Source of the DNA: a candidate division WOR-3 bacterium | GTDB taxonomy: Bacteria; SDB-A | Length of the DNA stretch: 40,698 bases | Reading direction: 5' to 3' | NCBI GenBank assembly: GCA_016926475.1 | Contig: JAFGON010000038.1 | Location: forward strand, 1 to 40,698 | In this document: positions 10,813-29,620 of the stretch, one piece after another | How positions within the stretch are numbered: position 1 is the first letter of the stretch | Layout: each line of letters opens with the position of its first letter | Notes under the pieces: generated by a model | Database searches by the model: none | Told to the model about the DNA's origin: nothing | What the model saw: only the letters and a program-made list of their open reading frames with translations | Program-made: the position numbers and the translations under genes

Positions 10813-11548
10813 AAAAAAGTTTCGGGTTGGTTTATATAGCCTGTTTTTTTGTGCGGCTTTTTTGTCTTCTTGTTCTAAAGACAGTATCTCAGAATCGAAC
10901 AGCAGATGGGGTGTGAACGGAACTGTCATCGGAATGAAGATATCTTCTTCCGAAAAGGGTATGTTATCATGGACTCTGGAGTCCGATAGCCTTGTATCCT
11001 GGACGGACGACACAAACGATGTTTACGGTATAAAACTCTTCTTTTTTGATGCATCGGGAGGTTTAAGTTCGACGATTGCTGCAGATTCAGGCCGGCAAGT
11101 CGTTGCAAATGGGGATTTATCTGCTTCGGGTGATCTTCTTATAAATATTTACGAGAACGGGTTTATAAAGTGGCGGATAGACGCCGACAGTGTATGGCAG
11201 AAGAACAGGCAACGAAGGATTGATATTTTTGAGCTGAACATGACCGTTTTGGATTCTACCGGAAAGGAAATCGCGTTTATTAAATCCGATTCAGGAACCT
11301 ATTTTCTGAACAGCAGAGATTTAAGAGCGTCTGGTAATTTAGTTGTGACGCTATCTTCTGGCGCCAATCTTACGACGGACAGCCTTTACTATAGTGAACA
11401 ATCTCAAACTTTCAACACCAATGGCAGGATAGTCTACGTAGAAAAAGACAATTCGATTGAAGGAGTAGGTTTTGAATGCGACAAGGAAATGAAAAATATT
11501 AGGGTTTTCAACGCGGTATCGGGTAAAATCAAAACAGATGAGATATAG
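10799..11548 (+). CDS. lptC: LptC-like LPS-export periplasmic protein (lipoprotein form)
   Basis: About 249 residues with a hydrophobic stretch (GLYSLFFCAAFLSSC) ending in a lipobox LSSC near residue 25, then a beta-rich domain of repeated short strands (NGDLSASGDLLI, SRDLRASGNLVV), typical of LptC/LptA beta-jellyroll proteins. LptC links the inner-membrane LptBFG pump to LptA. Identification rests on fold style, lipobox and position directly before lptA-lptB. Start is odd: the in-frame TTG at 10799 gives an atypical N-terminus, while an ATG at 10809, overlapping the leuS stop as ATGA, would be the natural start but is out of frame by one base because of an A7 run at 10812-10818. lptF/lptG are not in the window. 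Confidence 0.7.
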   Translation: MSSNEKKFRVGLYSLFFCAAFLSSCSKDSISESNSRWGVNGTVIGMKISSSEKGMLSWTLESDSLVSWTDDTNDVYGIKLFFFDASGGLSSTIAADSGRQVVANGDLSASGDLLINIYENGFIKWRIDADSVWQKNRQRRIDIFELNMTVLDSTGKEIAFIKSDSGTYFLNSRDLRASGNLVVTLSSGANLTTDSLYYSEQSQTFNTNGRIVYVEKDNSIEGVGFECDKEMKNIRVFNAVSGKIKTDEI

Positions 11549-27035: not shown

Positions 27036-27893
27036 ATGATAATTGAATGCCCGAGATGCAAAACCAGATATTCTATCAAAGATTCCGAAATTCCGAACGG
27101 AGGGGGTCCGGTTGAGTGCATAGAATGCGGTAATATTTTTACGATTTTCATCGAACCATTGTCTTTGATTATGAATAAAGTCACCCGGGAAGAGTCGGAA
27201 TCTGAATTTCAGAGATTATCCCACAGACAGCCTTCAAAACCTGAAACCTACCAGAGAGAAGGTGACTTTTTTGGAAAGAAAACAGCTCAGCCGAAAAAAA
27301 CCAACACAATCTTTGACGACACAGAAATGTTCAGATCTGAATTGGAATCAAACGTCAAGCAGACTAAGAACGAGTTTTCAAGTTTTGGGGACGATTTCAA
27401 CATAAATAAGCCTGTGACGAAACCCGAGAGAACAACCCCTTTAAAGTCGAACGATTCTTTTGATTTCGAAGGATTCACTTCAAAACCTAAAATTTCTTTT
27501 GATGATTCTTTATCAATGCAATCCTCACCTTCCTTGGATCGTCCAAAAACAGAGCAGAGATTCCAAGAGGATTTTGCGATAAAAAAATCGAAAGATTTCG
27601 CCCAACCTTCTTCTTCTCTTGAAGAATTTTTCAACATTCCCAAAACTCCCGAAGACAAGTTAAAGAATCTCGCTAACAGGGTGGTAAACGAGCTTAAAAT
27701 GTATTATCCTCAGGAATCCGACGAAGCCGCTACGACGGGAAAAATTCCGGTTAATTTGCTCAATGAGATCAAAAAAGCTTTACAGTTTTACAGGCAAGAA
27801 GCCATTAAAGACACCAGCTGGGAAACAGCCGTTGTTTATTTTCGTGACGCCATAAACACGATTATCGGTAAAAACAAAATTCTTTTCAGGTAG
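27036..27893 (+). CDS. MJ0042-type zinc-ribbon protein, unknown function
   Basis: A 285-residue protein. Residues 1-38 form a two-knuckle zinc ribbon (CPRCKTRYSI...VECIECGNIF), the MJ0042/'zinc-ribbon' motif often found at the start of envelope or motility-related regulators in delta-proteobacteria and candidate phyla. Residues 50-205 are a disordered, charged, Ser/Pro/Lys-rich linker with repeated F-D-D and KP motifs. Residues 205-285 form a compact helical C-terminal domain (EDKLKNLANRVVNELKMYYP, LNEIKKALQFYRQEA, WETAVVYFRDAINTIIG). No membrane segment. GAGG lies 6 bases before the ATG. It heads the run leading to the TlpA-like gene, 18 bases downstream. Confidence 0.78.
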   Translation: MIIECPRCKTRYSIKDSEIPNGGGPVECIECGNIFTIFIEPLSLIMNKVTREESESEFQRLSHRQPSKPETYQREGDFFGKKTAQPKKTNTIFDDTEMFRSELESNVKQTKNEFSSFGDDFNINKPVTKPERTTPLKSNDSFDFEGFTSKPKISFDDSLSMQSSPSLDRPKTEQRFQEDFAIKKSKDFAQPSSSLEEFFNIPKTPEDKLKNLANRVVNELKMYYPQESDEAATTGKIPVNLLNEIKKALQFYRQEAIKDTSWETAVVYFRDAINTIIGKNKILFR

Positions 27894-27911: not shown

Positions 27912-28502
27912 TTGAGAAGCGCTTTATTGCTATCTTTTTTTGTGTTTTTGATAACGGGAGTTTTGAACTGCAGCTCATCGCAGGGCTCCAACACAAACAA
28001 TACTGAAACAACTTCATCAGAAGTGGAAAACCCTCAGTTTTTCACCATTTCTTCCTTTACAAACTCAGATATGAAGACTGGCAGCAATTTTCCTCAGATG
28101 ACTTGGCTGTCGGAAGGTGAAGAAGTTTCCCTGACTTCTTTGGGTGCAAACGCTTATATCATAGATTTCTGGGCGACATGGTGCGGTCCCTGCAGAGTTG
28201 AAATTCCTCATTTGATAAGTTTACAAGATGATTATGGAGACGAAGGTTTAGTCGTAATTGGAATAAGCGTCGACGAAAACGCAAATGTTTTGCCGGCTTT
28301 CATCACCTCGAACAAGATTGACTACATTACTCTCCACACGACAAACAACGACTTCATATCTATGGTCCTGTCCCCCGGCGGAGGCGCTATTCCACAAACT
28401 TACGTATTGGATTCTACAGGAAAAATCGTCAAGTCTTTCGTCGGTTTTTCACCGAGTATGAAAGGGGAAATCGAAGCCGCTGTTGAAAGCGCTTTGCAGT
28501 AA
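27912..28502 (+). CDS. TlpA/ResA-like thioredoxin-fold lipoprotein
   Basis: A 196-residue redoxin anchored by a lipoprotein signal: hydrophobic LLLSFFVFLITGVLNC with lipobox Cys near 20. After a Ser/Asn/Thr-rich linker comes a thioredoxin fold with IIDFWATWCGPCRVEIPHL (WCGPC active site near 95) and the cis-Pro GGGAIPQTYVLD. TlpA/ResA proteins reduce periplasmic disulfides, e.g. in cytochrome c maturation, or serve other thiol chemistry; substrate unknown, no cytochrome genes nearby. Start is TTG at 27912 with AGGAGG 5 bases upstream. The next gene's ribosome site begins immediately after the stop. Confidence 0.88.
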   Translation: MRSALLLSFFVFLITGVLNCSSSQGSNTNNTETTSSEVENPQFFTISSFTNSDMKTGSNFPQMTWLSEGEEVSLTSLGANAYIIDFWATWCGPCRVEIPHLISLQDDYGDEGLVVIGISVDENANVLPAFITSNKIDYITLHTTNNDFISMVLSPGGGAIPQTYVLDSTGKIVKSFVGFSPSMKGEIEAAVESALQ

Positions 28503-28507
28503 AAAAA

Positions 28508-28520
28508 GGAGAATACAACG
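28508..28520 (+). promoter_or_regulatory. Ribosome-binding site with apparent ACG start codon
   Basis: GGAG (28508-28511), 6-base spacer, then ACG (28518-28520). The in-frame upstream stop is the TlpA-like TAA at 28500. No ATG, GTG or TTG occurs in this frame until TTG at 28548, which is inside the signal-peptide hydrophobic core. This ribosome site therefore points to ACG as the initiation codon. Confidence 0.5.
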
Positions 28521-28889
28521 GGCAAGAAAAAATATTTTATTTTTCTCTTGCTTTTATTCGCATACTCTTGCTCTTCCAACCATATGGAAGAGCAAGTAGA
28601 GCAAGTGTCGGGTTTTGCCGACAGGTCAGTTAAGATAAACATGCAAAAATTAAAAGAATCCGTTGACCTGTTTATTTTGGAATCTCCCAATTCAAGTTGT
28701 CCCAAATCAATATCCGATATGGACCTTCCGGTTGCTCTAAACCCTTATGATCAATCTTCACCGGCTTATGTTGATGGAGTCCCTTGTTTGAAAGGTACGG
28801 TCGGTTTTGTAGCTGATTCTTCCGGCTATAAAATACTCGGATTCGGCTCAAATGGCATTATGGAATATGAAATAGTCCAGGAAAAATGA
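28518..28889 (+). CDS. Small lipoprotein with pilin-C-terminus-like domain
   Basis: Reading from ACG at 28518 gives a textbook lipoprotein signal: basic GKKK, hydrophobic YFIFLLLLFAY, lipobox AYSC with Cys about 18, then SSN. From the alternative TTG at 28548 the basic end and most of the core are lost, so 28518 is preferred (123 residues). After a helix (VKINMQKLKESVDLFIL) the rest, with LPVALNPYD, GTVGFVADSSGYKILGFGSNG, resembles the beta-sheet end of type II/IV pseudopilins but without a pilin N-terminal helix. It is probably a surface or periplasmic lipoprotein of unknown role. The stop overlaps the next ATG (ATGA). Confidence 0.7.
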   Translation, partial: TGKKKYFIFLLLLFAYSCSSNHMEEQVEQVSGFADRSVKINMQKLKESVDLFILESPNSSCPKSISDMDLPVALNPYDQSSPAYVDGVPCLKGTVGFVADSSGYKILGFGSNGIMEYEIVQEK

Positions 28890-29620
28890 AGAGAATTTAT
28901 TGTATCGACAAAAACGATTTTCCTTACATTGGCGTTTTTGTGGAAGATGAGAGCGATTATCTCTCGAACTTCTTTTTGATGAACAATCCAATGTCCCGTC
29001 TTTTCGGTTTGAGAGGATTTGAGTCCACTTTTCTCTCTGCCATAGATGAAATGCGAAAAATAATTTTTATCAAAACAACCGACAGAAAAAAAATCCAGCT
29101 ATTCGTAGACGAACTTCACGAAAATGGAGATTATTCCGGATATAAAATTGATATTCCGGAAGAAGCTTTCAATTACCTTGAACTGATTGAAAACCCAAGG
29201 GGTTGCTATGAAATTTACACAGTGATGAAATGTGACACCCCACAGATAGCCGGATGTCAGAGACCGAGAGGAAATGTTGTTATAAATAGAAATTCCAGAG
29301 GTGAACCACTTGAAGTGAAGATGATTCATGAAGGTGTAACTGTCGCGACCTCATCTGTTTTTTGGATGGATAAAAATGCGGCTGAAATTTCACTGGAGTT
29401 TTCGAGTAAAGAAGAAACCGAAAAATGGGCGGTTTACGTTTTATCATCCCTGTCACAAGAATTGATTTCACAGGGAAAAATCCCTTTGTATCTCGCTCCT
29501 GAGATCAACCCGAAATCGTGGTCGATTGCTGAAAAGATCGGTTTTAGAGGGACCAATTACAAAATCATAGAAATTAGAGCCGATTCAACTCGCCGTTCGA
29601 AAAGAGAAGAATTATGTTAG
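28886..29620 (+). CDS. Possible GNAT-family acetyltransferase
   Basis: A 244-residue soluble protein. The C-terminal half (about 120-230) looks like a GNAT fold: GVTVATSSVFWMDKNAAEISLEFSS resembles the strand pair before the acetyl-CoA site, then a helix (EKWAVYVLSSLSQELISQG), a strand (PLYLAPEINPKSWSIAEKIGF) matching the 'V...N..S..l..k.GF' signature, and a last strand YKIIEI. The N-terminal part is a less conserved alpha/beta region. The canonical R/Q-x-x-G-x-G/A pyrophosphate loop is not evident, so activity is uncertain. ATGA overlap with the lipoprotein gene, 7-base overlap with the TPR gene. Confidence 0.6.
   Translation: MKRIYCIDKNDFPYIGVFVEDESDYLSNFFLMNNPMSRLFGLRGFESTFLSAIDEMRKIIFIKTTDRKKIQLFVDELHENGDYSGYKIDIPEEAFNYLELIENPRGCYEIYTVMKCDTPQIAGCQRPRGNVVINRNSRGEPLEVKMIHEGVTVATSSVFWMDKNAAEISLEFSSKEETEKWAVYVLSSLSQELISQGKIPLYLAPEINPKSWSIAEKIGFRGTNYKIIEIRADSTRRSKREELC

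Follow-up and report, generated by a model that had tools for sequence, protein, structure and literature searches.

An apparent ACG initiation codon in a conserved lipoprotein gene of a candidate division WOR-3 bacterium, and candidate near-cognate starts in its phylum

The lipoprotein gene described here appears to be a real and expressed gene that uses the ACG at position 28518 as its initiation codon through weak near-cognate initiation, a reading to which we assign a probability of roughly 0.68 on the strength of comparative sequence evidence. The gene lacks a canonical start codon ahead of its signal peptide, it carries a well-spaced Shine-Dalgarno (SD) sequence, its ACG occupies the position homologous to the ATG of a relative, and it is conserved within the phylum, while the same genomes hold further near-cognate start candidates and an initiation factor IF3 that differs from those of other bacteria. 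The use of near-cognate starts thus seems to be wider than one gene, as candidates are present in all four genomes and some are conserved across genera, and this wider use is a more valuable lead than the ACG gene itself.

The window, i.e. the whole stretch of 40,698 nucleotides that was analysed, is contig 38 of a genome (G000) of 2.15 Mb in 106 contigs, scored as 100% complete and 0.27% contaminated. The comparison set consisted of the four genomes (G000 to G003) that represent all members of this phylum in the collection, with G001 belonging to the same genus as G000. The relevant features of the window are the following:

27036..27893, plus strand: zinc-ribbon protein (Pfam Zn_ribbon_4), which opens the conserved cluster
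27912..28502, plus strand: TlpA-like thioredoxin-fold lipoprotein (Pfam AhpC-TSA/Redoxin), with a TTG start after AAGGAGG and a TAA stop at 28500-28502
28506..28511, plus strand: Shine-Dalgarno sequence AAGGAG, read from the sequence and scored as AGGAG with a gap of 6
28518..28520, plus strand: proposed ACG initiation codon, opposite the ATG of the G001 homologue and 18 codons before the cysteine
28518..28889, plus strand: lipoprotein gene, 123 codons plus TGA, with homologues in all four genomes of the phylum
28518..28568, plus strand: predicted lipoprotein signal peptide (basic n-region, hydrophobic core, loose lipobox AYS-C), read from the sequence; cysteine invariant
28520..28553, plus strand: predicted mRNA hairpin from the third base of the ACG, leaving the SD mostly unpaired (fold of 28470-28560)
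28569..28886, plus strand: mature lipoprotein with a predicted GspG/type IV pilin-like head (hhalign, structure model, VIA)
28886..29620, plus strand: GNAT-like protein, its ATG overlapping the lipoprotein stop (Pfam GNAT_acetyltran, E 2.3e-5, below its cut-off)

The order zinc-ribbon, TlpA-like, lipoprotein and GNAT-like gene is the same in G001, G002 and G003, the zinc-ribbon ORF of G003 being without its N-terminal part in the examined stretch, and none of the four copies of the lipoprotein gene contains an internal stop. A contig search for further relatives returned none with the single sequence and two loci with the alignment, both of them within genomes of the comparison set.

After the TAA at 28500, the reading frame runs through AAA AAG GAG AAT ACA to the ACG at 28518, continues with GGC AAG AAA AAA and with TAT TTT ATT TTT CTC to a TTG at 28548, proceeds from there through CTT TTA TTC and GCA TAC TCT to the TGC at 28569, and ends with the TGA at 28887-28889. 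It had been claimed in the earlier note that no ATG, GTG or TTG occurs upstream of 28548 and that GGAG lies six bases before the ACG, and both claims are borne out: the TTG at 28548, the first such codon, sits in the hydrophobic core, and GGAG occupies 28508-28511, within the AAGGAG that begins at 28506. The encoded N-terminus, T-GKKK-YFIFLLLLFAYSC, was also said to form a basic, hydrophobic and lipobox-terminated signal; its GKKK n-region, core and cysteine are indeed present, and its lipobox (A-Y-S-C) is loose. Since an SD core of at least 4 nt precedes about 9% of internal codons (939 of 10,166), an SD followed by a near-cognate codon is weak evidence when taken alone, and the stronger argument is the alignment of the ACG with the ATG of the G001 homologue, which lies 18 codons before the invariant cysteine, exactly as the ACG does in G000. 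The corresponding base was compared in the relatives, as the earlier note had suggested, and ACG is found in none of the three homologues: G001 and G002 have ATG, the latter with a slightly longer signal peptide, and G003 has no ATG, GTG or TTG before the signal peptide and offers ATA or ATT as near-cognate options, neither of them after a strong SD. A canonical start is consequently missing in two of the four family members (G000 and G003). Overall, the case for the ACG as start codon is good: the SD is suitably placed, the codon aligns exactly with the G001 ATG, and further near-cognate starts, a second ACG among them, occur in these genomes.

From these features we infer a route by which the gene would be translated. 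Ribosomes that terminate at the TAA of the TlpA-like gene, or that bind afresh, would be positioned by AAGGAG at 28506-28511 with the ACG in the P site, where the initiator fMet-tRNA (anticodon CAU) would pair with it despite a C-A mismatch at the second position. Occasional initiation would yield a small amount of a Met-GKKKYFIFLLLLFAYS-C preprotein, which, once exported, would receive its lipid anchor on Cys18 and present a pseudopilin-like head. The lineage may tolerate the ACG either because its start-codon discrimination is laxer or because weak starts are used as a brake, and it is plausible that the codon serves to keep the level of the lipoprotein low beside its TlpA-like neighbour. 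The fold predicted for 28470-28560 has a free energy of -22.4 kcal/mol (z -2.2; 4 of 200 shuffles as stable), and a hairpin at the start codon could hinder initiation, while it may merely reflect the AAA-rich and TTT-rich codons of this region.

Because a single base decides the matter and both G001 and G002 have ATG, the ACG could represent a recent loss. Two rival explanations concern this base. That the true base is T, the ACG having arisen as an error in sequencing or assembly or belonging to a minority strain of a population that otherwise starts with ATG, would require one transition only and would fit the fragmentation of the assembly into 106 contigs; it is nevertheless unlikely, given that the genome combines full completeness with very low contamination, that the frame is otherwise intact, that the independently assembled G003 also lacks a canonical start, and that near-cognate candidates recur in all four genomes, in some cases conserved across genera. 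A true and recent start-loss mutation, leaving the gene silent or nearly so, would agree with the ATG of the two sister species and need not yet be accompanied by other signs of decay; we regard it as distinctly unlikely, as the frame, the SD and the spacing are all intact and the more distant G003 retains an intact gene that also lacks a canonical start.

Initiation at another codon of the frame (TTG 28548, ATT 28539 or AAG 28524) is highly improbable. The TTG is the first canonical start in frame, yet a protein beginning there would read MLLFAYSC, with no basic n-region, half of the hydrophobic core and no SD ahead of it, and the suggestion that it is the true start thus appears very unlikely; the ATT lies within the core, and the homologous start is at 28518. 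Both the TTG and the ATT were rejected as starts, as they destroy the signal peptide and lack an SD. C-to-U editing of ACG to AUG is known from plant organelles and would here restore exactly the ATG of G001, which is all that speaks for it; it is scarcely credible, as these genomes also have ATT, ATC, ATA and CTG starts, which it would leave unexplained. With regard to a changed anticodon, an initiator tRNA pattern allowing CAU or CGU gave no match in G000, a result that is uninformative because the normal initiator tRNA was missed as well; in the search for the anti-SD, 16S rRNA was not found in the G000 assembly. Readthrough of the TlpA-like TAA into the lipoprotein frame was also rejected, since G002 and G003 encode the two proteins in different frames.

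A survey of lipobox-like ORFs in 560 kb of G000 returned 26, at least one of them a false lipobox (L043, resembling RNase HII), and 25 of the 26 have a canonical start 14 to 45 codons before the cysteine, the sole exception being the ACG gene. A missing start is therefore not the usual noise of such predictions, and genome-wide reassignment of ACG was discarded on the same count. Two of 13 such ORFs are without a canonical start in G003 (the lipoprotein homologue and one that is apparently spurious), as are two of 18 in G001 (one on L068, with a candidate ATA, and a questionable one on L052).

The product of the ACG gene is likely, though not certainly, a lipoprotein, since its AYSC departs from the canonical lipobox, [LVI][ASTVI][GAS]C. 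Its signal, GKKK-YFIFLLLLFAYS-C, consists of a basic n-region, a hydrophobic core and a cleavage-site cysteine that is invariant in all four homologues, the others reading LAGC (G001), SVGC (G002) and MCSC (G003). The mature domain matches the type IV pilins of the same genomes (hhalign probability 96.2, E 2.4e-9), and a structure model built from three sequences (pLDDT 79.5) resembles EpsG, the major pseudopilin of type 2 secretion (VIA Z 6.1, rmsd 2.6 over 78 residues; Foldseek E about 1 or worse), the first seven VIA rows being all pilins or pseudopilins. In Foldseek against the PDB the model had no match at E 0.001 or better, and a sequence search of the PDB gave one chance match (E 0.91). 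Pfam assigned no family to the protein, including PF07963 (prepilin peptidase site and methylation motif), which is matched by two true pilins of G000. The protein resembles GspG/EpsG and type IV pilin heads in the profile of its mature domain and may do so in its predicted fold, and it differs from them in that its signal peptide is that of a lipoprotein, while the prepilin N-terminus and any Pfam pilin match are absent; the combination makes it look like a pseudopilin head transferred to a lipid anchor, with a TlpA-like protein as its neighbour. The best guess as to its putative role is that it faces the periplasm or the cell surface and acts together with either the secretion or pilus machinery or the TlpA-like protein. 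A second lipoprotein-like protein, L023 (G001:C27), has a C-terminal part that resembles a pilin head, which suggests that pilin heads have been placed on lipid anchors more than once in these genomes.

With regard to the phylum as a whole, the individual cases are stronger than the screen statistics. In G003, TsaD has an ATT opposite the ATG of G002, with the first canonical codon 55 codons later and position 2 of TIGR03723 falling on residue 4; RsmH starts with ATA (TIGR00006 position 6 on residue 6); and a nicotinamidase-like and a DciA-like protein each have a candidate ATC start. LspA of G002 starts with ATC (TIGR00077 position 8 on residue 7, with a score just below the cut-off), Lnt of G001 has a candidate ATA start, and a Sua5-phosphatase fusion of G002 has a candidate ACG start after AAGGAGG, the second ACG case. 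An SD-preceded CTG is kept in a small membrane protein to which no family was assigned (L081 in G000, L053 in G001 and L104 in G003; 37-52% identity), and an ATT after GGAGG is kept in two species in an AI-2E family transporter (L086 in G000, L154 in G002). A radical-SAM protein has CTG in G000 opposite GTG in G001, and L079, a TonB receptor with ATT, is ambiguous, as an in-frame ATG lies upstream in its G001 relative.

The screen, which was applied to stretches of the four genomes and of controls, used coding potential to look for near-cognate codons that follow an SD and precede the first canonical codon by 8 codons or more. In its stricter form (ACG, ATA, ATT, ATC and CTG), 23 of 70 SD-preceded upstream codons were near-cognate in the phylum against about 10-11% expected from codon usage, with a binomial probability of 1.6e-7 (p0 = 0.10), a value that flatters the result, since a few ORFs enter with two or three codons each. 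Per genome, G000 is not enriched (4 of 23, with 2.4 expected), and the other three have 5 of 14, 5 of 18 and 9 of 15. Counted per ORF, there were 18 in 1237 in the phylum and 3 in 569 in the controls (Fisher two-sided p 0.10); without infC these become 16 in 1235 and 1 in 567 (one-sided p 0.014), and 12 in 1235 (p 0.05) when four doubtful calls are dropped by eye. Two of the three control matches are infC, among them the known ATT of E. coli; 300 kb of K-12 gave no further match. The remaining control match, L125 (G025; minus strand, 936-2159), is apparently ATA-initiated and matched no NCBIfam family. The matches set aside by eye, on account of a better canonical start or doubtful coding, were L053 (minus, 7352), L149 (plus, 3343), L034 (plus, 2286) and L052 (plus, 10299) in the stricter screen and L061, L063, L135, L158, L168, L040 and window position 11493 in a looser one; RsmH (L137), Lnt (L064) and a MobB-like protein (L159, minus, 1929), which come from the looser screen, were kept though the stricter screen misses them. 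An ortholog comparison that departed from SD-preceded canonical starts covered 328 pairs; canonical starts coincided in 211 of them, and the radical-SAM CTG was the only clear SD-preceded near-cognate replacement among the 328. Weighing the screen, the individual cases and the ortholog comparison together, we estimate that near-cognate starts may account for roughly 0.5 to 1.3% of the genes of the phylum, or about 1% of the sampled ORFs, the samples being small.

The infC gene, encoding IF3, is itself without a canonical start in all three genomes in which it was found, the candidate codons being ATC or a preceding ATT in G000, ATT in G002, and ATT or a preceding ATA in G003; G001 yielded no infC even though it is scored 100% complete. 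The IF3 proteins of G000 (L071), G002 (L072) and G003 (L070) share a 14-residue insertion in the C-terminal domain, which, as judged by match spans, is present in these three and in none of the 58 other matches (61 IF3 matches in 60 genomes), the next-largest excess over the family profile being 6 residues. Where E. coli has Arg131, they carry Tyr, Phe or Val; Arg is also present in G010 and in 5lmn (which we take to be a Thermus-type IF3), and Lys in 5me0, another solved IF3. The E. coli IF3 mutant R131P relaxes start selection, and a literature search combining IF3 R131 with start codons found nothing. According to PMC5472188, IF3 represses initiation at weak start codons. The changes in IF3 are a possible cause of near-cognate use, the relation between the two being one of correlation only. 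It is a tentative proposal that the phylum has evolved relaxed start selection through an IF3 without Arg131 and with a 14-residue C-domain insertion, so that near-cognates, including codons mismatched at the second position such as ACG, would be ordinary starts in about 1% of its genes, housekeeping genes included, and its effective set of starts would be wider than NCBI table 11, in which, to our knowledge, ACG, a codon hardly ever used for initiation, is not a start codon.

Known departures from canonical starts offer partial parallels. The ATT, ATC and ATA starts of infC in E. coli and Streptomyces (PMC5472188) and in S. aureus (PMC13009471) are similarly near-cognate codons after a strong SD, of the kind limited by IF3; there, however, the mismatch is at the third position and the gene is autoregulated, whereas here it is at the second position and no link of the lipoprotein to IF3 is known. 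The GTC start of Streptomyces sigR likewise joins a highly unusual codon to a strong ribosome-binding site and keeps an operon partner low, and it has both experimental proof and conservation in 32 of 34 species behind it (PMC5472188), while the ACG is read from sequence and its sister species have ATG. ATA, ATT, ATC and CTG starts, some of them variable between lineages and lowering expression, have been described in Listeria (PMC13068326) and for S. aureus cvfC1 and ccpN (PMC13009471), with a non-canonical share in Listeria below 0.3% (six fixed cases in 2265 conserved genes; PMC13068326) as opposed to about 1% in the present samples. The string ACG does not occur in the main texts of PMC13068326 and PMC13009471, nor in the other start-codon papers that were text-searched, including PMC5472188, and no natural ACG initiation in bacteria was among the matches listed in the literature search, in which subscription journals are thinly covered.

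A separate observation concerns L041 (G000:C12), where a peroxiredoxin on the minus strand (about 1800-2412, reverse-complement coordinates) has an in-frame TGA at its peroxidatic cysteine (...FYPGDFTFV-TGA-ATEVSAVAEKYPEF...), probably specifying selenocysteine. A tRNA-Sec model matched above its cut-off in all four genomes of the phylum, a model that also responds to other tRNAs.

Gene finders that are limited to ATG, GTG and TTG would truncate or lose genes of this type. If the pattern holds across the clade, annotation errors are likely in these genomes, affecting N-termini and signal peptides and extending to essential genes such as tsaD and lspA, and the phylum would provide a natural system for studying how strictly the ribosome chooses its start, with the C-terminal domain of IF3 as a concrete suspect.
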